64,000 nt of DNA. Source: Nonomuraea cypriaca (lineage in GTDB: Bacteria; Actinomycetota; Actinomycetes; Streptosporangiales; Streptosporangiaceae). The stretch spans positions 1 through 64,000 of the forward strand of contig NZ_JADOGI010000004.1 in NCBI RefSeq assembly GCF_015645445.1, given 5' to 3'. A program made the position numbers and the translations under genes. Under the pieces are notes generated by a model. That model searched no databases. It was not told where the DNA came from and was given only the letters and a program-made list of their open reading frames with translations. Shown here one piece after another: positions 28,356-51,365 of this stretch; the stretch's first letter is position 1, and each line of letters opens with the position of its first letter.

Positions 28356-29750
28356 TCACACTCTCGTCATCCGCAGCGCCAGGTACGGCCGCCGCGGCAG
28401 CTCCACCCGCACCCGGTCCCTGTGCACCCCGTCCACCGGGGTGATCGTCATGTTCCAGGTGTCGATCAGCTCGACCTCGTACGCGTCGCCGGGCGGCAGG
28501 TCGACCGTGACCCGGGCCGGTTGGCGCCGCCCCAGGTAACGCAGGATCGTGCCGTCGCGGCGCTGTTCCATGATCGTGCGTAGGAAGCCGATCCTGGCCG
28601 GGCTCTCCCCGTACAGGCCGCCGCCGTTGCCGATCCACGCCCGTTCCTGGTGGCCGGTCAGGGATTCGCCGTGGCCCACGTACCCGCCGCGGGTCATGCC
28701 CTCCCAGAACCGGTCGACCAGTTCGGCGCCGGTGATGTTGCCCCAGCGTTTGCCGACGTTCCCCTCGTAGCTGATCTCGTCGATCACCACCGGCTTGGGG
28801 CAGGCCGCGAGCCAGGTGCCGGTCAGGGTGGCGTCCCAGTGCTGGACGCTGTGGTGCGTCACCCACGGCTTGGTGTTGTCGTAGAGGGTCGCGACCTCGT
28901 ACATGCGCGTCCCGTTGTGGATGGACCTCAGATGCTCGTACGGGTCCAGCCGCTGGATGGTCCGCAGGATGTCGTCCCAGTCGGCCACGGTCTTGGCCCG
29001 GTTGAAGTCGTACTCGTTGGCGGCCGACCACCACACGTTCGAGAAGGCAGCCAGGCGGGCGATGACGTACCTGAGGTAGGCGTGGTCGGTCTCGCGGCCC
29101 ATGTCCTCGACGCCGCGCAGGCCGCCGTCGTACGGGTGGAAGAGGATCACGTCGGCCTCGACTCCGAGGTCGCGCAGGTCGCGGACCCGGCCCTCCAGGT
29201 GGCGGAAGAACACCGGGTTGAACCGGGTCCTGTCCAGACCGTCCGGATCCTCGCCGGCGAACGGCACCTCCGGCGGCCTCATCTGCCCGGTCGGCAGCAC
29301 GCACATGCGTAGCTTGTTGAACGGCGAGGCCGCCAGCGTCCGCAGCGTCGAGCGCTCGCGGTCCTCGTCCATGTCGTGCGTCCAGTGGTAACAGGTCGTG
29401 CCGAACGGCAGGTACGGCGTGCCGTCCGCGTACGCGAAGTCGATGCCCACGGCCCGCACGGGCCCGTGGTTGCCGTCGGAGGCAGGCGACACCTCGAAGG
29501 TGCCCGCGTGCCCGTCCAGCTCGGTCACATTGCTTATGGTCGTGTAGCTCCACGGACCCACCGCGTCCGGCATGAACCGGACGCGGTAGACGCCGTCGCC
29601 GTCGTAGAAGCCCTCGGCCTCGACGATGCGATCGCGGAACTGGAACCGGGCCGACAGGTGAACCTCAGCGAAGGGGTTCCCGCCGGACGGCCCGGCCAGT
29701 TCGATCTCATGGACGCCCCAGCGTTCCACGATGGGGGACAGTGTTACCAA
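28356..29750 (-). CDS. DUF5060/DUF4038/DUF5605 glycoside hydrolase (GH140 apiosidase-related)
   Basis: Protein of 464 residues. An N-terminal DUF5060 sandwich (GFYDGDGVYRVRFMPDAVGP) precedes a TIM barrel of the DUF4038 type (YADGTPYLPFGTTCYHW; SPFNKLRM; VILFHPYDGG) and a C-terminal DUF5605 domain (YEVELIDTWNMTITPV). Candidate catalytic residues are Glu in WWSAANEYDF (acid/base) and Glu in PVVIDEISYEG (nucleophile). GH140, the family of the rhamnogalacturonan II apiosidase, also has a DUF4038 barrel, so release of D-apiose is a reasonable hypothesis but membership in GH140 itself is unproven. TTG at 29750, 6 bp after AGGA, overlaps the upstream TAA. Confidence 0.8.
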   Translation of the reverse strand: MVTLSPIVERWGVHEIELAGPSGGNPFAEVHLSARFQFRDRIVEAEGFYDGDGVYRVRFMPDAVGPWSYTTISNVTELDGHAGTFEVSPASDGNHGPVRAVGIDFAYADGTPYLPFGTTCYHWTHDMDEDRERSTLRTLAASPFNKLRMCVLPTGQMRPPEVPFAGEDPDGLDRTRFNPVFFRHLEGRVRDLRDLGVEADVILFHPYDGGLRGVEDMGRETDHAYLRYVIARLAAFSNVWWSAANEYDFNRAKTVADWDDILRTIQRLDPYEHLRSIHNGTRMYEVATLYDNTKPWVTHHSVQHWDATLTGTWLAACPKPVVIDEISYEGNVGKRWGNITGAELVDRFWEGMTRGGYVGHGESLTGHQERAWIGNGGGLYGESPARIGFLRTIMEQRRDGTILRYLGRRQPARVTVDLPPGDAYEVELIDTWNMTITPVDGVHRDRVRVELPRRPYLALRMTRV

Positions 29751-31207
29751 TCCTTTCCTGCTGCGGCCTGGTTCTTGATGTAGTTGGGGATGTCCTGCTG
29801 CTGGGAGACGGTCAGCGCCTGCGCGGGCGTCCCGCCGTCACGCAGGATGTGCTGGCGGTAGACCGACCACAGCGGCAGGTCCCAGTACTCGGTGTTCTGG
29901 TAGTTCGAGATCGTGGCGTTCTCGCCCCAGTACACGGCCGAGGTGTCGATGTCGGCCAACTCGGGGATGGCCTTGCCGAAGTTCTGCACGACCTGGTCGG
30001 TCTGCAGGACGGCCTTGACACCGTGCCTGGAGAGTTCGGTCTGGCCCTCCTCGGAGACCATCCACTTCACGATCTGCAGTGCCTGCTCCTTCTCGGGAGA
30101 GGACGGCGGGATGAACGCGGCCCGTGTGTTCGGCTGGTAGACCGTCTTGGAGCCCGTCTTGAGCACCGGGATCGCGCTGACGCCGATGTCGACGCTCTTG
30201 GCCTGCTCGGCGAACGACTCCTCGTCGCCGTCCTCGATGAACAGCTCGCTGCCCGCGTACATGTTCAGCCGCGACAGCGTGTCGACCGCCATGGCCAGGT
30301 GACCCGGCTGGCTCATGTCGCCCTTGAAGAAGTCGGTGACGGTGGTGAACTCGTTGCGCGGGATCGTCAGGAAGCGGTACAGGTTGTCCACGTGCTTCTT
30401 CCAGGCGTCACCGCTGATGTCGACCTTGACGTCTTCGGGCGCGGGCTCCTCGCTCGTCGTCGGCTGGAACGCGTAGAGACCGGCCTGGTTGAAGTCCAGG
30501 TACTGGTCAGGGTGCTGCATGTAGCCCTTGTAGTGATCCAGGCCGTCGTCCTTGGTCAGCTGCTTGGCCTTCTTGTACGCCTCGTCGTACGTCATGCCGG
30601 GCTTGGGGTACTTGACCTTGAACTTGTCGAAGATCTTCTTGTTGTAGAGCAGCACGTGCTCATCGATGAACAGCGGCACGCCGTAGATGCCGCCGTCGGA
30701 GCGGGACTTGACCAGCTCGACCGTGGCCGGGTTCAGCTTGCTCAGGTCGATGCCGGCCTTCTGCAGGTCCGGGGTGAGGTCGCCGACCCAGCCCATCGGC
30801 TCGAGGTCACGGTCGATGCGGTTCTTCGGGTCCTCGATGATGACGTCCGGAGTGACCCCGGCGGCCTTGAGCTCCTCGTAGCGCACGGGGTAGTCCCACG
30901 TCGCGTACTTGATCTTGACGTCGGGGAACGCCGCGCGCAGCTTGTTGCCGATGATCTCGTCGAAGACCCTGGTCGCAGGCCCCTGATTGTTATCCGCCTC
31001 ACCCTCGATGGTCGACTCGAACGGCTTGTAGTTGACAGCGAAGATGAACACTTCGTCGTCGCAGACGCTGAACGGCACGTCGTACTGGTTCGGCACGTCC
31101 TTGCAGGCCGCCGACGGCTGGGGGGAGGCGTTGGCGGCGGCGGGGACGCCGGTGGTGACGGTCAGAGCGAGCGCGAGCAGCGCGAACCCACGGGCCTTCT
31201 GCATCAT
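29744..31207 (-). CDS. Secreted extracellular sugar-binding protein
   Basis: Protein of 487 residues. It has a Sec signal peptide (FALLALALTVTTGVPAAANA) but no lipobox Cys at the cleavage site, unlike the other binding proteins here. The mature chain has family-1 binding-protein features: TPDVIIEDP, GGIYGVPLFIDEHVLLYNKKIFDKF and a C-terminal EKEQALQIVKWMVSEEGQ. ATG at 31207 follows GGGAG. It lies in the pectin operon without sugar-type permeases beside it; the only permeases nearby are of the Dpp/Opp type. It may use those, use permeases elsewhere, or be a free oligosaccharide-binding protein. Confidence 0.85.
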   Translation of the reverse strand: MMQKARGFALLALALTVTTGVPAAANASPQPSAACKDVPNQYDVPFSVCDDEVFIFAVNYKPFESTIEGEADNNQGPATRVFDEIIGNKLRAAFPDVKIKYATWDYPVRYEELKAAGVTPDVIIEDPKNRIDRDLEPMGWVGDLTPDLQKAGIDLSKLNPATVELVKSRSDGGIYGVPLFIDEHVLLYNKKIFDKFKVKYPKPGMTYDEAYKKAKQLTKDDGLDHYKGYMQHPDQYLDFNQAGLYAFQPTTSEEPAPEDVKVDISGDAWKKHVDNLYRFLTIPRNEFTTVTDFFKGDMSQPGHLAMAVDTLSRLNMYAGSELFIEDGDEESFAEQAKSVDIGVSAIPVLKTGSKTVYQPNTRAAFIPPSSPEKEQALQIVKWMVSEEGQTELSRHGVKAVLQTDQVVQNFGKAIPELADIDTSAVYWGENATISNYQNTEYWDLPLWSVYRQHILRDGGTPAQALTVSQQQDIPNYIKNQAAAGKDW

Positions 31208-31216
31208 CTGGTCTCC

Positions 31217-32419
31217 CTATTTCCCGGGCGTGTAGCCGCACTGGCGGACGACGTTTCGCCGCACGCCGTTCCTGAACTCGGTGATCGTGTGCTGGGGCCA
31301 GTTCGACAGCAGGCCCACGGCGTCGCGGAGATAGTCCTCGTTGAACACGACATGCCGGATGTTGTTGCGGTTGTACGAATAGACCATGTGGATGAAGCCG
31401 TCGCCGCTCTGCGTCAGCACCGGGTAGGTGAACTGCGGCCCCGACTGGGCCTCGACGTCGACGCTGTTCTCCCAGGTGCGGCCCTTGTCGGGGGACAGCG
31501 ACAGCCGCATGGGGGAGCGGTGCTCGACCCACGGGTTGTAGGCCAGCACGAGCTTGTCGTCGGCCAGCTTGAGCGCCGCGACCCGCGAGTTCGGGTTGCC
31601 GATGGGCTCGGCCACCGGGGTGCTCCAGGTGCGCGCGAAGTCGGTGGAGTCGCTCGTGTAGATCGCGCCGTCCCCGGTGCGCAGGTACGCGCGCAGCCGC
31701 CCGGGCTCCACCTCCACCACGGTCGGCTGGATCGAGCCCTCCGGCGTCCTGATCCAGCTCCCGTGCTCCTCCGGGTACGCCTTCCACGACGACATGTCCT
31801 GGCTGAAGACGTAGAAGCCGGAGCTGGAGCCGCCCTCGTCGTAGATGGGCAGCAGCACCTCGCCGTTGGACATCCGGATCGGGTTGGTGCCCACCATCCA
31901 GCCCCACTCCTCGCGGATGTACGCGGGGTCGCTCCAGGTGTGGCCGCCGTCGTCCGAGATGATCAGGCGGATCGGGGCCTGCTCCCAGCCGTGCCCCTCG
32001 ATCGTCACGAAGAACAGGTAGAGGCGCCTGCCGTCCGACCACAGGACCGGGTTGCCGTCGGCCTTGCCCGGCTCGTCGAACACCACCTCGGGTGTGGACC
32101 AGGTCCGCTTGCCCGCGGCCAGGCGAGACAGGTAGAGCGCCTGGTCCGCCGACCCCTCCGAGGTCCCGCCGTAGTACACGGTCAGCATGTCGCCCTGCGG
32201 CGCCTGGGCCAGCGCGGCCGCGTGCACCTTGGGGACGTCCGGGTTCGGGGCGGCGACGTCCTGGCGGCAGGCGTACGAGCCGGTCGGCTCGACCGTCACC
32301 TCGCCCTTGCTGACAGAGGGGCCTTTGTCAACGGAAAGGTCTTGGTCCACGGAAAGGTAGGACGGGACGCCCACCGCCACTGCCAGGGCGCCGTATAAAA
32401 GGCTCTGCCGGAATCTCAT
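31217..32419 (-). CDS. Sialidase-like six-bladed propeller protein, exported
   Basis: Protein of 400 residues with an N-terminal hydrophobic signal (SLLYGALAVAVGVPSYL) and Asp-box motifs SDDGGHTWSDP and SPDKGRTWENS, the marks of BNR/sialidase propellers. The FRIP motif and Arg triad of true sialidases are not evident. A short repeat (SVDQDLSVDKGPSVSKG) follows the signal. Its ATG overlaps the upstream stop by 4 bp. In a pectin operon, plausible activities are those of GH93 exo-arabinanases or hydrolases of keto-sugars such as Kdo in rhamnogalacturonan II; sialic acid is unlikely. Confidence 0.75.
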   Translation of the reverse strand: MRFRQSLLYGALAVAVGVPSYLSVDQDLSVDKGPSVSKGEVTVEPTGSYACRQDVAAPNPDVPKVHAAALAQAPQGDMLTVYYGGTSEGSADQALYLSRLAAGKRTWSTPEVVFDEPGKADGNPVLWSDGRRLYLFFVTIEGHGWEQAPIRLIISDDGGHTWSDPAYIREEWGWMVGTNPIRMSNGEVLLPIYDEGGSSSGFYVFSQDMSSWKAYPEEHGSWIRTPEGSIQPTVVEVEPGRLRAYLRTGDGAIYTSDSTDFARTWSTPVAEPIGNPNSRVAALKLADDKLVLAYNPWVEHRSPMRLSLSPDKGRTWENSVDVEAQSGPQFTYPVLTQSGDGFIHMVYSYNRNNIRHVVFNEDYLRDAVGLLSNWPQHTITEFRNGVRRNVVRQCGYTPGK

Positions 32420-33465
32420 CGCGTGCTGATCTCCAGATATTTGATGGTTTTTCGCAGGTAGGAGAAGGCGATGCGCAACCGCCCATCGCCGCCGTCGATG
32501 ACGCACGGATACGAGTAGCCGATCTCGTTCTGCCAGTACTCGGAGTCGGCCTCCTGGAGCACCCGCCGATGCGGCCAGCTCAGGCCGCCGTCCTCCGACT
32601 CCGCGAGGACGAGCGGGGTGCGCAGCGCCTTCCTGCGCCGTTGCCCCTTCTTGGTCACCCACCTGAACTGGTCGCGCTCCAGGCTCGCGTCGTTGTAGAC
32701 GAGCGCGAGCCGGCCGTCGCCGAGCCTCGTGAGCTGGACGGAGGAGTCGTTGTTCGGCAGGTCGGTCCGCTCGGGCGCGGACCAGGTACGGCCGTCGGCC
32801 GAGACGGAGGTGTGGATCCGGCCCGCCCGGCGGTCACGGAACATCGCCAGCAGCTTCCCGTCCGGCCGTCCGGCGACGGTCATCTGCACCAGGTCACCGC
32901 TGCCGGGAACCTGGTGCTCGTCCCACGTGCGCCCGCCGTCGGTGGTGACCTCGACGACGCTCCGGTCGCCGGCGGCGCCGCAGTGGTAGGCGGGCAGCAG
33001 CCAGGTTCCGTCGCCGAGGATGAGCGGCGGGTGCCTGACGAAGATCCCGGGCTCGCCGAAGAGCACGTACGGTTCGCTCCACGTACGGCCCTGGTCGCCG
33101 GAGGTGCGGGCCACGACGTGCGCGGTCGTCTGGTCGTACGGCTCGCTGGAGGTGTGCAGCAACCAGATGCGTGTGCCGTCGTCGAACAGCACCGGGTTCT
33201 GCTCGCTGCGCTCGGGGTCGGTCGCGATGAGCTGGGACGGCGCCCACCGATCCGCGCCCGCCGCCAGCCGGGCCAGCGCCACGTTCGTGCCCGGATGCCC
33301 TTCCCGCGGGCCGGTGAACCACGTGCACAGCAGGTCGCCGTCGCGCGTGCGCAGCAGGTTGGCCGCGTGGCTGTCCGGGCCGTGCGGCGCGGGCAGCCAC
33401 GCCTCCCGCGCACCCTCCACCACCTCGGACCGCCGTACGACGCCGTCGAATCGCGGGTCGGTCAT
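32416..33465 (-). CDS. Sialidase-like (BNR) propeller protein, cytoplasmic
   Basis: Protein of 349 residues with four Asp-box-like motifs: TSGDQGRTWSEP, TTDGGRTWDEH, SADGRTWSAP and SEDGGLSWPH. The opening EAWLPAPHGPDSHAANLL and FTGPREGHPGTNVALARL match BNR-type proteins often annotated as exo-sialidases or GH93-like. No signal peptide is visible, in contrast to its partner at 31217. Start and stop both overlap the neighbours in ATGA junctions, directly after the transporter ATPase gene. It may act on imported oligosaccharides after the exported copy has acted outside. Substrate unknown. Confidence 0.75.
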   Translation of the reverse strand: MTDPRFDGVVRRSEVVEGAREAWLPAPHGPDSHAANLLRTRDGDLLCTWFTGPREGHPGTNVALARLAAGADRWAPSQLIATDPERSEQNPVLFDDGTRIWLLHTSSEPYDQTTAHVVARTSGDQGRTWSEPYVLFGEPGIFVRHPPLILGDGTWLLPAYHCGAAGDRSVVEVTTDGGRTWDEHQVPGSGDLVQMTVAGRPDGKLLAMFRDRRAGRIHTSVSADGRTWSAPERTDLPNNDSSVQLTRLGDGRLALVYNDASLERDQFRWVTKKGQRRRKALRTPLVLAESEDGGLSWPHRRVLQEADSEYWQNEIGYSYPCVIDGGDGRLRIAFSYLRKTIKYLEISTR

Positions 33466-34511
33466 GCCGTGTTCCCTCCTACGGGGTCGAGGTCCTGGTC
33501 GGGCACGCCGCGCAGCTCGAGCTCCGGCGCGAAGTGGCAGGCCACGCTCCTGCCCCCCACCTCGCGCAGCGGTGGCGGCTCCGTCCTGCAGACGTCCTCG
33601 GCGTACACGCAGCGGGGATGGAACGGGCACCCGGGCGGCGGATGCGCCGGGTCCGCGATGTCGCCGAGCAGCTTGATCCGCTCCCGGTGCCGCCTGGCCG
33701 CCGGGTCCGGGTCGGGCACAGCAGACAGCAGCGCCTCGGTGTAGGGGTGCAGGGGACGGCCGTAGAGCCGCTCGGTCGGTCCCTGCTCGACGACCCGGCC
33801 GAGATACATGACCGCCACCACGTCGGCGACGTGCTCGACGATGCTCAGGTCGTGGCTGACGAACAGGTAGCCGAGGCCGGACTCCTCGCGCAGGTCCATC
33901 AGCAGGTTGAGGATCTGGGCGCGGACCGAGACGTCAAGAGCGCTCACCGCCTCGTCCGCCACGACCAGCCGGGGCGACAGGGCCAGCGCCCGTGCGATGC
34001 CGACCCGCTGCCGCTCGCCGCCGCTGAAGGCGTGGGGGTAGCGGTCGGCGTACTCGGGGCGCAGGCCCACGCGGTCGAGCAGCTCCCCCACGCGGTCGGC
34101 GATCTCGTCCTTGGTGCCGTACCCGTGCGCCCGCATCGGCTCCCCGATGATCTCGCGCAGCGTCTTGCGCGGGTTGAGCGACGAGTGAGGGTCCTGGAAG
34201 ATCATCCGGACCTGCGCCCGGTACGGCTTGAGCTCCTTCTCCTTCAGCGTCGCCACGTCGACCACCGAGCCGTCCGGCTGCCGGTAGAGCATCCGGCCGC
34301 CGGTCGGGTCGTGCGCCCGCACGATGCACCGCCCGAGCGTGGTCTTGCCGCAGCCGGACTCGCCGACCAGGCCCAGCGTGGTGCCCGCCTCGATGGTCAG
34401 GTCGACGTCGTCCACGGCCTTCACCGCGCCCACCTGTCGGCCCAGCAGGCCGCTGCGCACCGCGAAGTGCTTCGTCAACCCCTCGATCTTGAGCAGTGGG
34501 TCCGTGCTCAT
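33462..34511 (-). CDS. Oligopeptide/oligosaccharide ABC transporter ATPase, DppF/OppF type
   Basis: Protein of 349 residues. Walker A is GESGCGKTT, the Q-loop is in [12 protein letters not shown], the signature is SGGERQRV, Walker B is [12 protein letters not shown] and the switch is [12 protein letters not shown]. The C-terminal oligo-HPY domain with its Cys pair region ([15 protein letters not shown]) marks the Opp/Dpp subfamily. It pairs with the ATPase encoded just upstream (ATGA overlap) to power the DppBC-like permeases. The family is named for peptides, but related systems import oligosaccharides, and all neighbours here are pectin enzymes. Confidence 0.93.
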
Positions 34512-42279: not shown

Positions 42280-43302
42280 TCAGTCGCGCAGGAGTTGCTC
42301 CGCCACGCCGACGTCCGTGATGAGGGTGTTGACCCAGCCGCCGCGCAGGGCGGCGCGGATGGCGGCGGTCTTGCGGCGGCCGCCGGCGATGGCGATGCGG
42401 CGGGGGACTCGTAGCAGGTCGGCGGCGGGGATGCCGAGGATGCGCTCCTCCAGCGGCGAGTCCACGAGGCGGCCCTCGGCGTCGAAGAAGCGCAGGCACA
42501 CGTCGCCCACCGCGCCCAGCCCGCGCAGGGTCTCCAGGTCCTCCTCCGAGATCGCGTTGCCGCTGTCACGCAGCAGCGGGGACGGGTCGAGGCTGCCGAT
42601 CCCCACCAGCACGGTCGTCAGCCGGGACCACGCGTCCACGACCTGGCGTACCACGTGATCGTCCGACAGCGCCTGGCGCGCCTGGAGCGTGCCGACGAGA
42701 CCGGGCGCGGGCAGGAAGACGGGCTCGGCGCCGGTGAGGTCGGCCAGGTGGGCGGCCAACCGGGTGGCCTGCACCTGCGCGGACCCCTTGCCCACGCCGC
42801 CGATGAGCTGCACCACCTCGTCAGCCACCCGCACAGGACGGCGCTGCATGGCCTCGACGGTCGCCAGCAGGCTGGCGCTCCACGACGAGATGCCGAGGTG
42901 CTCGCCGCCGATCAGCGTCGCGTCGAGGTACGTCGCCCCCGCCGACCCAAGCGCGGCCACGACGTCGTGGTTGTCGCCGGCGGCGTCGACCACGATGATC
43001 TGCTCCACGCCGTATTTGCGCTCCAGGTCCTCCTCCAGCAACGCGTGCACGCCGCTGGGCACCACGACCACGGTGCGCACGATGCCGATCTCCGCCGCCT
43101 CCTTGAGCAGCCGCGACACCCGGGGCTGCGAGATGCGCAACTGGGCGGCGATCTGCGGCTGGCGTACGCCGTGCTCGTGGTAGAGGCGGGCGACCCGCAC
43201 CAGGAGGCGCATGCGCTCGGACTCCTGGCTGAGCCGGCGACCGCTGAACCGCACGGCCTCGCCGCCAGAACGGCCCTTCTCGAACTGACTGTCAGCTCCC
43301 AC
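42280..43302 (-). CDS. SorC-family sugar-responsive transcriptional regulator
   Basis: Protein of 340 residues if GTG 43302 is used; ATG 43212 after AGGAG would give 310. The N-terminal helix-turn-helix reads RQPQIAAQLRISQPRVSRLLKEA, the signature of SorC/DeoR-like regulators. The C-terminal sugar-phosphate-binding domain follows (GVGKGSAQVQATRLAAHLADLTGA; VGIGSLDPSPLLRD; IAIAGGRRKTAAIRAALRGGWVNTLITD). Such proteins sense phosphorylated sugars. Here it is the last gene of the kinase-transketolase-isomerase operon, so it likely senses an intermediate of that pathway. Confidence 0.92.
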   Translation of the reverse strand: MGADSQFEKGRSGGEAVRFSGRRLSQESERMRLLVRVARLYHEHGVRQPQIAAQLRISQPRVSRLLKEAAEIGIVRTVVVVPSGVHALLEEDLERKYGVEQIIVVDAAGDNHDVVAALGSAGATYLDATLIGGEHLGISSWSASLLATVEAMQRRPVRVADEVVQLIGGVGKGSAQVQATRLAAHLADLTGAEPVFLPAPGLVGTLQARQALSDDHVVRQVVDAWSRLTTVLVGIGSLDPSPLLRDSGNAISEEDLETLRGLGAVGDVCLRFFDAEGRLVDSPLEERILGIPAADLLRVPRRIAIAGGRRKTAAIRAALRGGWVNTLITDVGVAEQLLRD

Positions 43303-44788
43303 GATCGCTGGCCTCCGCTTCGGCTCCGCCGCTCCTGCTGGTCCGGTGGCGAGCCCGGGCCACTGCCGAGTGCCATTCTGCTAGCGCACGGCGACGCTCG
43401 CACGACGATAGGCCGGGTGTGTAGCGCCGGCCGTGGCGTGGCAGCCCGGACAGCTCCCGGCGGGACCATACACCGGATGCCGTGCCCGCGAGATGAGCGG
43501 CCCCCAGCGCGGACAGCTCCGGCCGCCGCGCCACCCGCACCGCCCGGCCGGTCACGTCGGCCTGCCACTGCATGAGGTCGGTGTTGCCGGTGGGCCCGCC
43601 GTCGGCGAGCAACTCCCCGACGGGGCCCGACGCCCGCTCCATGGCCGACACGACGTCGCCGACCTGCAGCCCGATGGAGTCCACCGCCGCACGGGCGAGG
43701 TCCTCCCTGCTGCTGTCGAGGCCGAAGCCCGTCATGATCGCTGCTGCCCGGTCGTCCCACCACGGCGCGCCGAGGCCACCGAACGCTGGCACGATGTGCA
43801 GCCTACCCCGGCGGCCACCGGCCGCGAGCCTGGCCACTTCCTCCGGGTTCGTCCCGAGCACCCGGGCCAGCCAGGTGATCGTCGCGCCAGTGGACAGGAT
43901 GTTGCCCTCCAGCGCGTACGCGGGCGCGTCGTCGTGCCAGGCGATGGTCAGGCACAGGCCCTCGTCGAGCGGCACCTCCGGATCGGCCAGGCCCATGACC
44001 GACGAGCCTGTGCCGTACGTGACCTTGACCCGGCCCGGCTGCCAGGCGGCGTGTGCGAACAGCGCGGCGTGGGAGTCGCCGAGCACCGCACCCACCGGGA
44101 CCCCGGCCAGGGACGGGTGCAGGGCGGCGGCGTCGGCGTGCGCGCCGCTGGAGCGCACCACCTCGGGCAGCGTCTCCGCCGGTATCCCGAACAGCTCGAG
44201 CAGCTCGGGACTCCAGCGGCGGCGCCGCACGTCGAGCAGTTGCGTACGGGACGCGCTCCCGACCTCGATGACGTGGCCCGCGCCCAGCCGGTGGAGCAGC
44301 CACGAGTCCACCGTGCCCAGACACAACCGCGAGCCGCGGGTCCCGTGCTCCCGGAGCAGCAGGGCAGCCTTCGAGGCCGAGAACATCGGGTCCAGGGGCA
44401 GCCCGCTGATCCGGCGTACCAGGGGACCGGCGCCGTCGGCGGCCAGCCGCGCGCACACGTCCGCGCCCCGCCGGTCCTGCCAGCTCACCAGCGGCCCCAG
44501 CGGCTCGCCCGTCGAGCGCTCCCACAGCAGCACGGACTCGCGCTGCACGCTCAGCCCCACGGCGGCCACCCGTCCGCCTGGCACCCCGGCCAGGCACTCG
44601 GCGACCGCCTGGCGCACGCCGCGCCACAGCTCCTCGCCGTCCTGCTCCACCAGGCCGGGCCCGGGATGGCGCTGGGAGAGCGGCGCGGAGGCGCGCGCCA
44701 CCAGCTCGCCCGCGGCGTTCACGACGACGGCCTTGGTCGCGCTGGTGCCCTGGTCGACGCCGAGCACCAGCGGCTCAGTTGTGGTCAA
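43292..44788 (-). CDS. FGGY-family carbohydrate kinase, candidate D-apulose kinase
   Basis: Protein of 498 residues of the xylulokinase-like FGGY family. The ATP/sugar core starts with LVLGVDQGTSATKAVVV; GTVDSWLLHRL and VTYGTGSSVMGL follow, with ADGGPTGNTDLMQWQADVTG in the C-terminal domain. TTG 44788 is the likely start, 9 bp after GGAGG, overlapping the transketolase stop. Usual annotation would be xylulokinase, but the partners (split transketolase, TIM-barrel isomerase, SorC regulator) match the D-apiose pathway, where the kinase makes apulose 4-phosphate. The substrate is inferred from context. Confidence 0.88.
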   Translation of the reverse strand: MTTTEPLVLGVDQGTSATKAVVVNAAGELVARASAPLSQRHPGPGLVEQDGEELWRGVRQAVAECLAGVPGGRVAAVGLSVQRESVLLWERSTGEPLGPLVSWQDRRGADVCARLAADGAGPLVRRISGLPLDPMFSASKAALLLREHGTRGSRLCLGTVDSWLLHRLGAGHVIEVGSASRTQLLDVRRRRWSPELLELFGIPAETLPEVVRSSGAHADAAALHPSLAGVPVGAVLGDSHAALFAHAAWQPGRVKVTYGTGSSVMGLADPEVPLDEGLCLTIAWHDDAPAYALEGNILSTGATITWLARVLGTNPEEVARLAAGGRRGRLHIVPAFGGLGAPWWDDRAAAIMTGFGLDSSREDLARAAVDSIGLQVGDVVSAMERASGPVGELLADGGPTGNTDLMQWQADVTGRAVRVARRPELSALGAAHLAGTASGVWSRRELSGLPRHGRRYTPGLSSCERRRALAEWHSAVARARHRTSRSGGAEAEASDRGS

Positions 44789-45731
44789 GGCCCAGCACCT
44801 CCAAGGTCGCCCTGACGATCCCCTCGGCCGTGAGGCCGAAGTGCTCCAGCAGGAACTCCGTCCCCCCGGTCGGCGCGAACGAGCGCGGCCCGAGCAGCCG
44901 CATCGGCACCGGCCTGGTCTCCAGCACGACCTCGGCCACCGCCGCCCCCAGCCCGCCGGTGGGCACCGCCTCCTCGGCCGTGACGACCGCCCTGGTCTGC
45001 CGGGCCGCCGCCATGATCTCCTCACGGTCCAGGGGGGCGATGGTGGAGACGTTCAGCACGCGTACGTCCACGCCGCGCTCCGCCAGCAGCTCGGCCGCCC
45101 GCAGCGCGCGGCTGACCAGCGTTCCCGTCGCCACGACCGTGGCGTCCTTGCCCTCGCGCAGCCGGGTCGCGCGCCCGTAGACGAAGGCGGGGCCGCCGGG
45201 CGGCGACACGTCGGGCACGGGGAAGCGCCCGATCCGCAGGAACACCGGTCCGGTCGTCCCGGCCGCCCACCGGATGGCCGCGCGCGTCTGCGCGGGGTCG
45301 GCGGGCACGACGACGGGCAGGTCCGCGATGGCCCGCAGCCACGACAGGTCCTCGGTCGAGTGGTGGGTGGGCCCGAGCGCGCCGTACGACAGGCCGGGGC
45401 TCATCCCGCACAGCTTGACGTTCGCCAGACTGTACGCCACGTCGGCCTTGATCTGCTCCAGCGCCCGCGCGGTCAGGAACGTCGCCGCCCCGCACACGAA
45501 CGGCACCAGCCCCGCGTTCGCCAGCCCCGCGCCGATCCCGACCATGTCCTGCTCGGCGATCCCCACGTTGACCAGCCGTTCGGGGAACTCCCTGGCGAAG
45601 GCGACCAGCTTGCTCGACCCCACCGAGTCGTTGCACACGGCCACGATCCTGCTGTCGGCGCGGGCCAGGGCGACCAGCTCCGCGGCGAAGGCGTCCCGGC
45701 AGTCGTGCGTCTGCGTCTCGTCGAGGATCAA
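44775..45731 (-). CDS. Split transketolase, C-terminal subunit (candidate apulose-4-phosphate transketolase B)
   Basis: Protein of 318 residues containing the pyrimidine-binding and C-terminal domains of a transketolase. RLVNVGIAEQDMVGIGAGLA carries the conserved Glu that activates thiamine diphosphate; GPTHHSTEDLSWLRAI and VVTAEEAVPTGGLGAAVAEV are typical. TTG 45731 overlaps the N-terminal subunit stop (TTGA), so the two halves are translationally coupled. A separate two-gene transketolase beside an isomerase and kinase is the arrangement of the apiose route, giving xylulose 5-phosphate and dihydroxyacetone phosphate. That role is inferred. Confidence 0.9.
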   Translation of the reverse strand: MILDETQTHDCRDAFAAELVALARADSRIVAVCNDSVGSSKLVAFAREFPERLVNVGIAEQDMVGIGAGLANAGLVPFVCGAATFLTARALEQIKADVAYSLANVKLCGMSPGLSYGALGPTHHSTEDLSWLRAIADLPVVVPADPAQTRAAIRWAAGTTGPVFLRIGRFPVPDVSPPGGPAFVYGRATRLREGKDATVVATGTLVSRALRAAELLAERGVDVRVLNVSTIAPLDREEIMAAARQTRAVVTAEEAVPTGGLGAAVAEVVLETRPVPMRLLGPRSFAPTGGTEFLLEHFGLTAEGIVRATLEVLGLDHN

Positions 45732-46642
45732 CGCAGTTCCTCGAGCGCCGTACGGGCCTGCTCGGCGTCGGGCACCTTGTGATGCCATTCCACCCGATCC
45801 TCCATGAACGACACCCCTCGCCCCTTCACGGTCCTGGCGATCACGCACCGCGGCCGGAGCGCGCCGCGCGGCGCGGTGACCGCGTCCAGCAGCGCCAGGT
45901 GGTCGTGCCCGTCGACCTCGACGGCCTCCCACCCGAACGCCCGCCACTTGTCGGCCAGCGGCTCCAGGTTGGCGGTCTCGCAGGTCCGCGCCCCCTGCTG
46001 CAGCCCGTTGCAGTCGACGATCGCCGTCAGCGACGTGAGCCGGCGGTGCGCGGCCGTCATCGCCGCCTCCCAGTTGCTGCCCTCCTGGAGTTCGCCGTCG
46101 CCGAGCACCACCACCGTCTTGGCCGGCGAGCCCCGCAGGAGCAGGCCGACCGCGACGCCCACGCCGACCGGCAGCCCGTGGCCGAGCGGCCCCGTGCTGG
46201 TCTCGACGCCGGGCACCGCCCTGCGGCTCGGATGGCCGTTGAGCGGCGACATCGGGGCCGCGAACGTGCGGAGCGCCTCCGCGGGGAAGAAGCCGCAGGT
46301 GGTGAGCGCGGTGTAGAGGGCGACCGAGCAGTGGCCCTTGCTCAGGATGAACCGGTCGCGGTCGGGCCAGTCCGGCTGGGCCGGGTCGATGCGGAGCACG
46401 GCGCCGTACAGGGTGCTGAGGATGTCGGTGACCGACAGGTCGCCGCCGGTGTGGCCGAGGCCCGCCCCGCTGATCGTGCTGATCACGGTGCGCCTGATCG
46501 TGCGGGCGAGGGTCGCGAGCGCGGCGGCGGACGCGGGCCGGTCGGCGTAGGCCAGCCGGGCCCGCAGCCGGCGCCATTCCCCGATGGCGTCGTGGTCGGG
46601 CAGGAGGAGGTCTCGCGTGACCGTCCCATTGCTACGTCGCAC
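45728..46642 (-). CDS. Split transketolase, N-terminal subunit (candidate apulose-4-phosphate transketolase A)
   Basis: Protein of about 304 residues, the thiamine-diphosphate-binding half. SGAGLGHTGGDLSVTDILSTLYG, DRFILSKGHCSVALYTAL, GPLGHGLPVGVGVAVGLLL and the ThDP motif GDGELQEGSNWEAAMTAA ... DCNGLQQ are all present. The start is uncertain: GTG 46642 overlaps the isomerase stop by 11 bp and has only a weak GGGACGG site; TTG 46684 is a longer option. It works as a heterodimer with the following subunit. Confidence 0.88.
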   Translation of the reverse strand: MRRSNGTVTRDLLLPDHDAIGEWRRLRARLAYADRPASAAALATLARTIRRTVISTISGAGLGHTGGDLSVTDILSTLYGAVLRIDPAQPDWPDRDRFILSKGHCSVALYTALTTCGFFPAEALRTFAAPMSPLNGHPSRRAVPGVETSTGPLGHGLPVGVGVAVGLLLRGSPAKTVVVLGDGELQEGSNWEAAMTAAHRRLTSLTAIVDCNGLQQGARTCETANLEPLADKWRAFGWEAVEVDGHDHLALLDAVTAPRGALRPRCVIARTVKGRGVSFMEDRVEWHHKVPDAEQARTALEELR

Positions 46643-47618
46643 GTGCCGTCCCGATCGCCGACCACAGCAGCCGCTGTGCACCAAGGGCGTCCTGCCGCTC
46701 CTGTACGGCCCGCAGCTCGCCCAGGTCGATCCGGTCGCACACCTCCTCCAGCATCCGGATGGTCGCGATGCTCTGGGACAGCGCGCGCACCGGGTCCTCC
46801 CTGAACGGGAACTGGTCGAGCAGGATCGGGGCGTTCCAGCCGATCCGCCGTACGGCCAGCAGGTACTCGATCGTCTCGAACAGGTGCACCGACGCCACCG
46901 GCAGGTCGTCGTCCCAGCCGCGCCAGTTGTCGTTCAGCTCGACCGACACCAGCCGCCCGCGCCGGTGCACGAGCTGCACCGCCTCGGCGGGCGTCTCCCC
47001 GGCGAGCAGGGAGTGACCGAAGTCCATGACGATGCCGACGTTCGGCCGCCCGGCCTCCTCGATGGCCAGCAGCGTGCGGGCCGCGTCGGAGAGCGTGATG
47101 CGGACGCGCGGCTCCTTGGCCTTGTACTCGATCGCGAACCGCACGTCGGGATGCGCCCCGGCCAGGTCGCGGATCGCGGTCACGGTCAGGTCCCACAGCT
47201 GCGCGTAGTCGGCCTGGCCCGGCATGTCGAAGCCGTCCTGGCCGGGCCAGAACTTCACGTATCCGGCCCCGAGCTCCCGCGCGACCGCGACCGCCTCGTG
47301 CACCCGCTCCGCCGCGCGCTCGCGCACGGCCGGGTCGGGGTTGGTGAACGCCCCCTTGCCGAACTCCCGCGTGTACAGGTGCGGCGTGATCGCCCTGGCC
47401 CGCAGGCCGCGCCCGGCCAGCTCGTCGGCCAGCTCGGACGCCTTGGAGACGCCCTCGGCGAACGGCACGTTGATGTCGAGGCACTCCAGCCCGTCCACGG
47501 CCGCGGCCAGGTCGAGCATCTCCCGCATCGTGCGCGCCGGGCCGTAGCCGTCGCTCGCGTACCTGTCGACGATCTGCCCGAACGCCCAGATCCCGGCGCC
47601 GAACGTGAGTGCGCTCAT
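46632..47618 (-). CDS. TIM-barrel sugar isomerase/epimerase, candidate D-apiose isomerase
   Basis: Protein of 328 residues of the xylose-isomerase-like TIM-barrel superfamily. Metal-site segments are visible: VRFAIEYKAKEPR (Glu), VGIVMDFGHSLL (Asp and His), VSVELNDNWRGWDDD and PILLDQFPFREDP. ATG 47618 follows GGGAAGGGA. It is the first gene of the block isomerase - transketolase halves - kinase - SorC regulator. In the known non-oxidative apiose pathway this fold converts D-apiose to D-apulose. Other sugars, such as L-rhamnose or pentoses, remain possible. Confidence 0.87.
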   Translation of the reverse strand: MSALTFGAGIWAFGQIVDRYASDGYGPARTMREMLDLAAAVDGLECLDINVPFAEGVSKASELADELAGRGLRARAITPHLYTREFGKGAFTNPDPAVRERAAERVHEAVAVARELGAGYVKFWPGQDGFDMPGQADYAQLWDLTVTAIRDLAGAHPDVRFAIEYKAKEPRVRITLSDAARTLLAIEEAGRPNVGIVMDFGHSLLAGETPAEAVQLVHRRGRLVSVELNDNWRGWDDDLPVASVHLFETIEYLLAVRRIGWNAPILLDQFPFREDPVRALSQSIATIRMLEEVCDRIDLGELRAVQERQDALGAQRLLWSAIGTARAT

Positions 47619-47667: not shown

Positions 47668-48564
47668 CTAACGTCCGGCGAAGGCCCGCAGTTTCGCGAA
47701 AAAGTCCTCGTGGATGAACCGGGCATCGATCGAGTCGTACGTGCGGATCGGCCGGTTCTGGGTGGAGAAGTCGTAGGAGCCGTCGTAGCGGAAGTTCGGC
47801 GCCGGCCGCTCCACCCACGTCCCGCAGGCCGAGTGCAGCAGCAGCCCGATCGCGGGGGAGTCGCCCAGCACGCGGAACTCGATCGAGGCGCCGTGCTGAC
47901 GCTCGTTCCACTCGACGAGCTGGCGCACGAGGTAGTCGCCGATCTCGCCGCACGGCGCGACCTTCTCGTCCAGCTCGGCGTAACCGACGGCCGTCATCCG
48001 GTACGTCGGCGCCGGGATCTGCCAGACCGGCAGCGCCGAGGAGAACACGATGTTGGCCGCCACGATGTCGTTGGACAGGTTGAACTCCGGCCGCCCGGCA
48101 GGCCCGCCGCGGCCGTCGTACCCGCCGCCGCCGATCCAGACGACGGTCACGTCACGCTCGGCGATGCGGGGTTCGATGAGCAGCGCCGAGGCCATGTCGG
48201 TCAGCGGGCCGAGGAAGGCCACGTAGAGCGGCTCGGGCACGTCGCGCATCGCCTCGGAGACGATCAGCTCCACGCCGGGGGCCGCGACGGGCGTGGCCAC
48301 GTCGGGCAGCGCGTACGGCGCCCCGTCCTCGACCCGGACCTCGCCCTCCAGTTTCATCAGCCGCAGCAGCAGGTCGATTTCCGCCCGGCTCTCCTCCATG
48401 CTCGTACGGGTGCGCCGGTCGCCGAAATGCGCGGCGACCAGACCCCGAATGTCGAGACTGGGGGAGAGCAACGCGTGCACGATGGCGAATTGGTCGTCGG
48501 CCTCGTTTTTGGCGTCGGTGTCGACGATCACCCTGCGCCGGTTGGAAAACGTTCTGCTCGCCAT
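47668..48564 (-). CDS. Nucleoside-hydrolase-fold protein
   Basis: Protein of 298 residues. VIVDTDAKNEADDQFAIVHAL is the calcium-binding Asp cluster of inosine-uridine nucleoside hydrolases, with the spacing altered by KNE as in a subgroup often found near polysaccharide genes. VTVVWIGGGG and the FNLSNDIVAANIVF segment support the fold. ATG 48564 lies 6 bp after GGAG. Its stop is 49 bp upstream of the isomerase start, so it probably heads that operon, with the clearest TGAATA-N2-TATTCA palindrome in front. It may cleave a furanosyl glycoside other than a nucleoside; that is an inference. Confidence 0.83.
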   Translation of the reverse strand: MASRTFSNRRRVIVDTDAKNEADDQFAIVHALLSPSLDIRGLVAAHFGDRRTRTSMEESRAEIDLLLRLMKLEGEVRVEDGAPYALPDVATPVAAPGVELIVSEAMRDVPEPLYVAFLGPLTDMASALLIEPRIAERDVTVVWIGGGGYDGRGGPAGRPEFNLSNDIVAANIVFSSALPVWQIPAPTYRMTAVGYAELDEKVAPCGEIGDYLVRQLVEWNERQHGASIEFRVLGDSPAIGLLLHSACGTWVERPAPNFRYDGSYDFSTQNRPIRTYDSIDARFIHEDFFAKLRAFAGR

Positions 48565-48612: not shown

Positions 48613-49866
48613 TTATGTTGTGACATTTGTCGTGTCAAGATCCCAGAGGATCACGGTCAGCGCGTGCGGCGAGATGGTGTGGTCGTCGTGCGTGGCGTCC
48701 TCCAGGAGGTCCCACCGGCCCCGCTCGGGCCGCCCGCCGGCCAGCAGCATGACGCGGTCGCGCACCGGGGCCTGGTACACGCGGTGCCCGACCCCGTTGA
48801 AGCAGCAGTCGTCGAACCGGTTGAGTATCTGCAGCTGCCCGCGCCCCCGGCCGATGGAGGCCAGCACGTACATGTCGAGGAAGTCGTCCGACTCCGCCGC
48901 GTAGAAGCCGGGGAACGACGCCTTCGTCTGCTCGAAGTCGCCGATCGTCGGGCTCGGCTTCGGCGAGGCCGGGCGCAGGAAGAACGGCAGCGACCCGGCC
49001 ACCGGATAGCTGCGGGTGACGCGCGGATCGAGCGCCGCGTACACGGTGGTCGTCCAGCCGCCGCCCGACAGCCCGATCATCTCCACCGAGATCGGCCGGT
49101 ACGTCGCCTGCGCGTAGTTCAGGGTGACCGTGAGAGGTTCGAGGAAGAACGTCAGCGTCGAGAACTCCGCGCTCTCCCACGGCGGCAGCTCCCGGTGCGA
49201 GGGACCGGGCAGCATCGTCCCCGGGTTCGCCGGGTCCTCAATGCCCTGTCCGTTCCAGTGGTGGAACGGCATCGCGTACGCCATCACCCGGTACCCCTGG
49301 TCGAGCAGGGCCTGGACGGTGCGGAGCATGGTGTCGAACGGCTCGCCGTGGCCGTTGTGGTAGAGCGCCAGCCGCCGGTTCCAGCGTTTGGCGGGCTGGA
49401 GGTCGTACACCTTGGCCGTGACCCGGTAGCGCAGCGGGACCGTCAGCAGGTCGACCCTGCGCACGCCGGTCAGCGAGGCGAAGTCGGGCGCGGTGACGCC
49501 CGTTTCCACCGTGGGCAGCGACTTCGGCGGGCCCGCGCCCTTCCAGATGTAGTCCGCCATGGCCGTGCGCCTGGCCGCGATGTCCGCTTCCGAGGCGATG
49601 CCGATCAGCGGTTCGATGTCGACACCCGCCACGGCGGCGGGCAACGTCTTGTACTCGGGACCGAACCTGGCGGCGGCCTCCTGATTCACCGGCGCCACCG
49701 GCCGCGCCGCCCCCTTGCCCGAAGCCGCCCCGGTCGCGGCCCAAGCCGCCGAACCTCCACCGACTCCGGCGACGGTCACGCCGAGCCCGGCCAGGACGCC
49801 GCCCAGAACCCGGCGCCTGCCCATTCCGCCGCCCACGCCATCGTTCCTGCCGTCCGTCTCGTTCAT
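48613..49866 (-). CDS. Exported alpha/beta hydrolase, putative esterase
   Basis: Protein of 417 residues with a twin-arginine-like signal (GRRRVLGGVLAGLGVTVAGVGGG, cleaved near AWA). The fold shows RLALYHNGHGEPFDTML, a strand-turn EMIGLSGGGWTTTVYAAL with nucleophile Ser in GLSGGG, and a C-terminal ATHDDHTISPHAL with a likely catalytic His. The family is not one I can name; an acetyl- or feruloyl-esterase acting on pectin is plausible. It lies 19 bp after the pectin methylesterase gene, in the same operon. Confidence 0.75.
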   Translation of the reverse strand: MNETDGRNDGVGGGMGRRRVLGGVLAGLGVTVAGVGGGSAAWAATGAASGKGAARPVAPVNQEAAARFGPEYKTLPAAVAGVDIEPLIGIASEADIAARRTAMADYIWKGAGPPKSLPTVETGVTAPDFASLTGVRRVDLLTVPLRYRVTAKVYDLQPAKRWNRRLALYHNGHGEPFDTMLRTVQALLDQGYRVMAYAMPFHHWNGQGIEDPANPGTMLPGPSHRELPPWESAEFSTLTFFLEPLTVTLNYAQATYRPISVEMIGLSGGGWTTTVYAALDPRVTRSYPVAGSLPFFLRPASPKPSPTIGDFEQTKASFPGFYAAESDDFLDMYVLASIGRGRGQLQILNRFDDCCFNGVGHRVYQAPVRDRVMLLAGGRPERGRWDLLEDATHDDHTISPHALTVILWDLDTTNVTT

Positions 49867-49885: not shown

Positions 49886-51331
49886 TCAGTCGCGACCGGG
49901 TTCGGGATCCCAGCCGCCCAGGACGAACGAGGGTTCGCTCCACTGCGCCGCCTCGGCGGCGGTGAGCCGGCGCGAGCAGGCCAGCCGCTGCGAGACGTCG
50001 ATCGGCTCGCCGGTCAGGTCGGTGCTGCGGTACTCCCAGAAGGACGTCGACTGGGCCTGCGCGCAGTCGTCCGGGTCGATCTGGAAGCCGGCCGGATCGA
50101 TGTGGGAGTCCATCGCCGTGTCGATGAACACCGCCTGACTGTGCGTGAACCGCCACACCGCGCTCCTGCTCAGCGCGACCGAGCCGTCGGGCACCCCGGG
50201 CGCCCGCGTCAGCTTCGTCCGCACGAACACCGTCCCGGGCCGGGTCGCGTCGTTGCGGCTCTGCGCGATGTAGCCGGCGTCCGTGGACTCCAGCACCGAG
50301 TCCTGGATGAACACCGTGCCCGTGCCCCAGACGAAGTCGGTGTCGCCGCTGATGTGGCTGTCGGTCACGAATCCCTTGCCCTGCAGACGCAGGGTGTCCT
50401 GGAAGCTGCGCAGGCGCACCCGCTCCAGCGCGATGCGCTCGTTGTTGCCCCGGAACGCCTCGGCCTGCGAGCCGCCGTCCGCCGTCGTGTTGTGCAGCGT
50501 GATGTCGCTCATCCGGAAGTCGGCCGCGTCGACGCCGAACATCGCCCGCCAGCAGTTGTGCAGGTCGGATTCCGCCAGCACGCGTCGCGGGCACACGTCC
50601 GCCGGGCCGCCGTCGCTCAGCGCCTTGTCGCCGTTGCGCAGGTCGTTGTTGGGGTACTGGATCACGGTCCGCCGCGCGCCGGCGCCTCGGACGGTGATGT
50701 GCGGGCGGTCCTCGCGTACGTACACCATCTCGGTGTAGACGCCGGGCCGCACGTCGATCGTCACCGGCGTCTCGTTGCCGGTCGGGACGGCGTCGACGGC
50801 ACCCTGCACGGTGCAGAAGTCGCCGGTGCCCGCGGCGGACACCGTCAGGTGGCGCGGCTGTCTCTTGGCGGCCTTCTTCGTCGTGAACCGCCAGGTCTTC
50901 GGGTCCTGGACGCCGTCGAACCCGGTGAAGACGCCGGGGTCGACGGTGACGTAGTAGTCCTGGCCGTACTCGAGCCGGTGATGCGGGTAGACGGTGGCGG
51001 TGTCGCCGTCGATCATGATCGATTCGTACGAGAAGTCGTGCGGCAGTCCCGTGTCGGAGACGGCCGCGCCGATGTTCTTCCTGTCGGTCCTGGCGGTGGC
51101 GGCCTCGACGCGGTCGGCGAGGCCGCCGTCCGCGCGGCGCACCTCGATCGCGCCGGTCTCGCCCAGGGTCGGCGGGTCAGGGAAAGTGATCGTCAGGGGC
51201 GCGTCGACGCAGGTCCCGCTACCGGTCCCGGGCACCGCGAACCGCGCTCCCGCACCTGCCGTCGCGTGGGCCGTCGCCGGGCATAAGGCGAGCGCAGCCG
51301 CCGCGACGAGCACCGTGATGGTTGCCTTCAC
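49886..51331 (-). CDS. Secreted pectin methylesterase, CE8
   Basis: Protein of 481 residues with a Sec signal (TITVLVAAAALALCPATAHA). An Ig-like N-terminal domain (to about residue 135) is followed by the CE8 beta-helix: VQGAVDAVPTGNETPVTI, SFQDTLRLQGKGF (about 308; Gln and Asp) and GDTDFVWGTGTVFI (about 329; Asp), with an Arg-containing C-terminal active-site region. Start GTG 51331 lies 5 bp after AGAGG; GTG 51337 is an alternative. It removes methyl groups from homogalacturonan so that the pectate lyase can cut. First gene of a two-gene operon with a TATTCA-type element upstream. Confidence 0.92.
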   Translation of the reverse strand: MKATITVLVAAAALALCPATAHATAGAGARFAVPGTGSGTCVDAPLTITFPDPPTLGETGAIEVRRADGGLADRVEAATARTDRKNIGAAVSDTGLPHDFSYESIMIDGDTATVYPHHRLEYGQDYYVTVDPGVFTGFDGVQDPKTWRFTTKKAAKRQPRHLTVSAAGTGDFCTVQGAVDAVPTGNETPVTIDVRPGVYTEMVYVREDRPHITVRGAGARRTVIQYPNNDLRNGDKALSDGGPADVCPRRVLAESDLHNCWRAMFGVDAADFRMSDITLHNTTADGGSQAEAFRGNNERIALERVRLRSFQDTLRLQGKGFVTDSHISGDTDFVWGTGTVFIQDSVLESTDAGYIAQSRNDATRPGTVFVRTKLTRAPGVPDGSVALSRSAVWRFTHSQAVFIDTAMDSHIDPAGFQIDPDDCAQAQSTSFWEYRSTDLTGEPIDVSQRLACSRRLTAAEAAQWSEPSFVLGGWDPEPGRD

Positions 51332-51365
51332 ATCCACCTCTCAGCAGCGAATGGATAGTTGGCTT

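Follow-up and report, generated by a model that had tools for sequence, protein, structure and literature searches.

Which sugar is degraded by a compact five-gene operon in Nonomuraea cypriaca, and how would that sugar be released for it? The operon lies at 42280-47618 on the minus strand of a 64,000-nucleotide stretch of DNA (contig NZ_JADOGI010000004.1, positions 1 to 64,000; hereafter the window) contained in an 11.5-Mb genome. It encodes an isomerase, a transketolase in two halves, an FGGY kinase and a regulator, and an initial annotation of the window read it as a pathway for D-apiose. Apiose occurs widely in plant cell walls and in flavonoid glycosides, and to our knowledge few apiose-releasing enzymes are known. 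The comparison of genes and neighbourhoods described here makes it very probable that this is a non-oxidative D-apiose catabolic operon with the predicted substrates given below, and points more tentatively to a nucleoside-hydrolase-like protein from the same run of genes as the apiofuranosidase that would feed it.

The first of the five genes encodes a TIM-barrel sugar isomerase (46632-47618; PF01261, 75.2 bits), proposed to convert D-apiose into D-apulose. It is followed by an AptA-like N-terminal transketolase half (45728-46642; PF00456), whose GTG start overlaps the end of the isomerase gene, and by an AptB-like C-terminal half (44775-45731; PF02779/PF02780), whose TTG start overlaps the stop of the N-terminal half (TTGA). 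A glycerol-kinase-like FGGY kinase (43292-44788; PF00370/PF02782), the proposed D-apulose kinase, and a SorC/DeoR-type sugar-binding regulator (42280-43302; PF04198, 201.6 bits) complete the operon. All five genes are on the minus strand and each neighbouring pair overlaps by 4 to 14 bases, in agreement with the tight operon originally described. The same-strand run extends upstream of the isomerase, and starts further upstream than had been annotated, at a pectinesterase gene followed by alpha/beta-hydrolase-like and nucleoside-hydrolase-like genes, with gaps of 19, 48 and 49 bases. The eight genes from the pectinesterase to the SorC regulator presumably form a single transcript. Orthologues of the five operon genes occur in the same order at four of five other Nonomuraea loci, whose isomerases are 87-91% identical to that of the window; the fifth (L007) is a 7.6-kb contig with only a partial kinase match near the contig end.

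In the proposed pathway, the product of the isomerase would be phosphorylated by the FGGY kinase to D-apulose 4-phosphate, from which the split transketolase would transfer a two-carbon unit to glyceraldehyde 3-phosphate, yielding dihydroxyacetone phosphate and xylulose 5-phosphate. The signal recognised by the SorC regulator would be the sugar or its phosphate. This scheme of isomerase, kinase and transketolase reportedly goes back to Carter et al. in 2018.

The N- and C-terminal transketolase halves are 44.8% and 40.6% identical to AptA and AptB of E. coli SE15, respectively. Percent identities to the E. coli cluster prove little alone, because the E. coli kinase and AptA score about as well against paralogues elsewhere in this genome; it is the trees that separate the window genes from their paralogues, the kinase tree only partly. 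In a tree built from the two halves joined together, a branch supported at 100/97 has all 29 rows of apiose-type clusters, including the window and E. coli SE15, on one side and seven further transketolases, of which six are split and one is single-chain, on the opposite side; apart from E. coli SE15, the apiose-type labels were taken from gene neighbourhood. The transketolase phylogeny suggested as a check in the initial annotation thus groups the window with AptA/AptB. In pairwise scores AptB alone prefers the window, at 201 bits against 131. A second split transketolase on contig C223 of the genome (L109) is 47% identical to the window N-terminal half and lies outside the apiose branch of the tree.

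The kinase phylogeny, suggested at the same time, gave a mixed answer. The window kinase stands outside a 100/99 branch that holds GlpK and four cluster kinases, and belongs to an 84/61 group together with a Deinococcus kinase; GlpK itself, however, nests among the apiose-type cluster kinases. The best NCBIfam model of the window kinase is glycerol kinase (383.6 bits, under the cut-off of 590.35), and the window kinase shares 38.6% identity with its counterpart in the apiose cluster of E. coli SE15. The kinase tree is thus compatible with D-apiose catabolism, being weaker and less clean than the transketolase tree. The regulator and its counterpart in the SE15 cluster share 37.3% identity (207 bits), and SorC relatives (at least 100 bits) occur at 33 of 68 isomerase loci, which makes them common, not strictly defining.

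The closest solved structure to the isomerase is PDB 3ktc (345.7 bits; next match 71.9), which we take to be the Pectobacterium enzyme in both organism and role. Both transketolase halves and the kinase (at least 100 bits, within the DNA examined) are present at 57 of the 68 isomerase loci, and loci with these pathway genes span several phyla. The remaining 11 comprise five distant homologues (33-37% identity) and six others; of these six, all but L046 are short contigs or have their match near the end of a contig. Among 369 gammaproteobacterial genomes searched, only the centre genome G004 gave a match to the Enterobacterales isomerase.

The operon resembles the E. coli SE15 and Pectobacterium apiose clusters in having a same-clade split transketolase, an FGGY kinase and a sugar-binding regulator. 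It differs from the E. coli version in having an isomerase in place of two SDR genes, and from both in standing in a run with pectinesterase, alpha/beta-hydrolase-like and nucleoside-hydrolase-like genes. According to PMC13001218, E. coli strains with the SE15-type cluster grow on D-apiose whereas K-12 does not, the two SDR genes are thought by the describers to replace the isomerase, and the Pectobacterium version of the cluster has the isomerase. A Deinococcus plasmid bridges the two arrangements: in transketolase, kinase and regulator it shares 53-63% identity with the window, and an adjoining SDR pair is 60-63% identical to the E. coli pair. A similar gene order is found on an Agrobacterium plasmid.

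Several observations weigh against the assignment to D-apiose. AptA scores the second split transketolase of the genome (225 bits) as highly as the window N-terminal half (219), the E. coli apiose kinase does not prefer the window kinase (303 bits) to the GlpK-like kinases of the genome (308), and with GlpK nested among them the cluster kinases do not form one clade. The closest relatives of 3ktc that were found, in Pantoea (83-86% identical), are without transketolase and kinase genes in their listed neighbourhood, and a search of the window with the binding protein of the E. coli apiose cluster gave no relative. The first two of these, the position of GlpK and the neighbourhood-derived tree labels would suit an operon for another sugar, such as a different pentose, a tetrulose or a sulfosugar, with likeness to apiose genes at the family level only. 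We consider this very unlikely, in view of the 100/97 transketolase branch, the relatives of the transketolase, kinase and regulator held in common with the E. coli-type SDR cluster in Deinococcus, and a linked nucleoside-hydrolase-like gene that marks a D-apionate cluster as well (see below). The D-apiose reading of the initial annotation is therefore supported by the transketolase tree and by the joint presence of the pathway genes at most isomerase loci. Its import component, in contrast, was not borne out, since the window is without the binding-protein relative. Relatives of the E. coli-type apiose binding protein (at least 100 bits) occur at 17 of the 68 isomerase loci, and a ribose-type importer, a frequent though not defining part of apiose clusters, is absent from the window. 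Import of apiosides by some route is what we infer. The Pantoea isomerases mentioned above sit on plasmids (L094, L095).

How D-apiose would be released is suggested by the nucleoside-hydrolase-like gene directly upstream of the isomerase (47668-48564, minus strand; PF01156), whose product appears by eye to be without a signal peptide. The initial annotation had the five operon genes right but missed this member of the same run. The gene is kept in the five Nonomuraea loci, and genes of the window type adjoin or lie near the isomerase in L061, L039/L040 and L105. In L105 the order is a regulator on the other strand, the hydrolase, a solute-binding protein relative, permease-like frames (recognised by eye), the isomerase, the transketolase halves and the kinase.

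The same gene type is found with a second pathway. In Microvirga ossetica, a 54% identical relative is preceded by ABC transporter genes and shares its cluster with ApnL (899 bits, cut-off 750), OiaX-like (453, under 700) and OiaK-like (575, under 700) genes, and M. lotononidis has relatives of the same Microvirga genes at 87-97% identity. Oxidative D-apiose/D-apionate clusters (ApnL, ApnO, OiaK, OiaX) thus resemble the window in that the M. ossetica cluster holds a window-type hydrolase gene (53-54% identity), but differ in the chemistry that follows; a search of the window at an E-value of 1e-5 gave no relatives of ApnL, OiaX, OiaK and ApnO from Microvirga. As the hydrolase gene stands beside both transketolase-pathway and D-apionate genes, this type of gene accompanies two D-apiose routes that differ in their chemistry.

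We then used the hydrolase as the query and, leaving out its own genome, obtained nine genomes or records with a close relative: four from a draw of 150 family genomes, two from a draw of 396 phylum genomes and three plasmid records (at least 42% identity). Clear apiose genes stand beside the hydrolase in four of the nine (G375, G472 and both Microvirga). Weaker signs are seen in two, G837 with an ApnL-like gene below the cut-off (201 bits) and an ApnO-like gene, and G778 with an ApnO-like gene; two more (G501, G518) have the isomerase elsewhere in the genome. The ninth, a Paenarthrobacter plasmid (L140) on which the hydrolase gene is in two pieces, has no apiose genes beside it. The plasmid search matched 18 records, and the hit region was inspected in five (L111, L139, L140, L141, L142); relatives of the apiose query genes were not found in L140, L141 and L142, apart from generic SDR matches in L141.

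Co-occurrence was counted in the 150 family genomes, own genome included. The isomerase is present in nine, the window-type hydrolase in five and PF07632, the Sde182-type nucleoside-hydrolase-like domain, in four; the seven genomes with either hydrolase type, from four genera, all lie within the nine isomerase genomes. The corresponding sampling p-values are 2e-7 (5/5), 6e-6 (4/4) and 1e-10 (7/7), with the own genome included and no correction for kinship. Thresholds were 1e-60 for the isomerase and window-type hydrolase and 1e-10 for PF07632 and GH28, and the four counts were taken to refer to the same 150 genomes since the listed genome identifiers agree. In three of the four PF07632 genomes, the gene lies within about 5 kb of the isomerase. 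GH28, used as a pectin control, occurs in 21 of the 150 genomes, 16 of which are without the isomerase. It is enriched among isomerase genomes (5/9; chance of at least five, 0.003), but tracks the isomerase far less tightly than the nucleoside-hydrolase-like genes do. In L046, L047 and L148, the apiose isomerase has two or three PF07632/Sde182-type genes in its vicinity or adjoining it.

These distributions bear on two other explanations of the hydrolase. It could act in nucleoside salvage or another housekeeping role and be in the operon by chance, as its fold and PF01156 membership would allow; the same is suggested by the two-piece Paenarthrobacter gene and by a Lachnospiraceae relative (L127, 46-47%), in a genome picked for its isomerase homologue, neither of which has adjoining apiose genes. 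The latter counts against a role in apiose release, as does the presence of a window-type or PF07632-type hydrolase at only 13 of the 68 isomerase loci (about 12 independent ones, because L039 and L040 are 94% identical position by position). We regard a salvage role as improbable, given that all seven hydrolase-positive family genomes have an isomerase present in just nine of the 150 and that the gene is linked to two different apiose pathways. Alternatively, the protein might cleave another plant furanoside, for example of arabinofuranose, or bind sugars uncleaved, and travel with pectin genes generally. The pectin island in which the window operon stands would fit this, yet four of the seven positive family genomes have no GH28 match at threshold, most GH28 genomes are without the isomerase, and the recurring partners of the hydrolase are apiose catabolic genes of two kinds. 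This explanation is rather unlikely, being less so than nucleoside salvage. More distant nucleoside-hydrolase-like proteins (34-36%) on Sphingobium (L141) and Novosphingobium (L142) plasmids stand beside beta-glucosidase/GH3 genes, in Novosphingobium beside a GH43 gene too, and add to the case for another furanoside; in both, the last aspartate of the N-terminal fingerprint is a glycine.

The residues of the protein itself were compared with those of inosine-uridine nucleoside hydrolases. It has the nucleoside hydrolase fold and a PF01156 score in the family range, and is 18-21% identical to RihA, RihB and RihC. Its N-terminal fingerprint is two residues longer than in the PF01156 enzymes (RihA, 1mas): in place of DxDxxxDD the window has DTDAKNEADD, with the aspartates kept, and in most relatives of the window type the first aspartate is an asparagine. 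The probable metal-site aspartates are retained. The group I leaving-group histidine, in contrast, is not: the window reads LGDSP where RihA/B/C have HD, so that a glycine precedes the last metal aspartate. In what we take to be the numbering of the Crithidia enzyme, the positions concerned are D10, D14, D15, H241 and D242. For His241, the numbering is also given in PMC8910321. The same source notes that some active nucleosidases are also without the leaving-group histidine, which softens the argument of its loss against nucleoside salvage, and reports that the related Sde_0182 domain, of solved structure, was inactive on nucleosides, a separate point against salvage. Its proposal there as a furanose-interacting module (PMC8910321) would in turn suit a protein for another furanoside. 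The window protein differs from the Sde182 domain (PF07632; PDB 2yhg), matching it at 30.2 bits over 54 residues only, with no Sde0182_C match. In a tree of nucleoside hydrolases, support for the 11 rows proposed as a group is only 56/90, and G837, with its weak apionate signs, falls outside this group; a 95/96 branch joins the Microvirga proteins with that of L039, which comes from a transketolase cluster.

Taken with the gene neighbourhoods and co-occurrence, these residues make the nucleoside-hydrolase-like protein a tentative candidate for an apiofuranosidase, with the case for and against nearly in balance. It would act inside the cell on imported apiofuranosides and free their D-apiose, with its metal gripping the cis-2,3-diol of the apiofuranose in the way that ribose is held in nucleoside hydrolases. 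With similar caution we propose that the window type (TDx5DD, GDSP) and at least part of the PF07632/Sde182 type may constitute a new metal-dependent apiofuranosidase family that cleaves O-glycosides and feeds both D-apiose pathways. No report of a nucleoside-hydrolase-type apiosidase was found in the literature searched, subscription literature being mostly outside the search.

Another candidate for this step lies about 12.5 kb from the operon. The initial annotation had pointed to a DUF4038-type enzyme related to GH140 apiosidases, and the DUF5060-PF13204-DUF5605 glycoside-hydrolase-like protein at 28359-29750 (minus strand) does share with them a PF13204 domain above the cut-off (60.7 bits against 26.5). 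Its GH140 membership is no more than putative, because the protein has DUF5060 and DUF5605 domains, unlike GH140 apiosidases, and among solved structures just one, the putative glycoside hydrolase 4n0r, is clearly related to it (322.9 bits; next E-values 0.056 and 0.87). Homologues (405-480 bits) occur at 13 of the 68 isomerase loci, at ten of them within 120 bases of the isomerase frame, and this linkage in other genomes supports a putative apiosidase function. That this enzyme feeds the operon while the nucleoside-hydrolase-like protein does something else is possible, though doubtful: one enzyme does not exclude the other. The 13 PF13204-type and 13 hydrolase-type loci show zero overlap (hypergeometric 0.046, without kinship correction), which fits alternative enzymes for one step. 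The value is modest, however, and L105 and the genome of the window itself have both types, weakening the one-role pattern. Directly upstream of the PF13204 enzyme gene is that of an extracellular solute-binding protein (SBP_bac_1; 29744-31207, minus strand). A second PF13204 protein on contig C1 of the genome (L108, 13770-15599; 188.9 bits) is a better family match than the window enzyme. Nine actinobacterial loci (L015-L021, L052, L072), including one from Candidatus Planktophila lacus (1.46-Mb chromosome) and two titled Bifidobacterium breve metagenome-assembled genomes, have the isomerase, transketolase halves and kinase with none of the three candidate apiosidases in the DNA examined; the L072 isomerase is cut by the contig end.

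The pectin island around the operon contains GH43, GH78, GH29, GH42, GH28 and GH127 domains and the pectinesterase (CE8-type; 49886-51337, minus strand; PF01095, 98.9 bits), which has a secreted-looking N-terminus. One island protein matches the pectate lyase PelZ model with a score under the cut-off, and two adjacent BNR_2 (sialidase-like) proteins are encoded at 31217-33630. The alpha/beta-hydrolase-like protein (48613-49866, minus strand) has by eye a twin-arginine-like N-terminus and a GLSGGG motif, and no match to it was found in Pfam or NCBIfam. It is kept in the five Nonomuraea loci and has a 56% identical relative in a Streptomyces plasmid cluster (L097), where the relative adjoins a pectinesterase; a structure prediction with six close sequences reached a mean pLDDT of only 29.9.

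If the nucleoside-hydrolase-like proteins are indeed apiofuranosidases, a fold known for the cleavage of N-ribosides would also serve in breaking down plant glycans, and the Sde_0182 domain, of open function, would receive a concrete substrate candidate.

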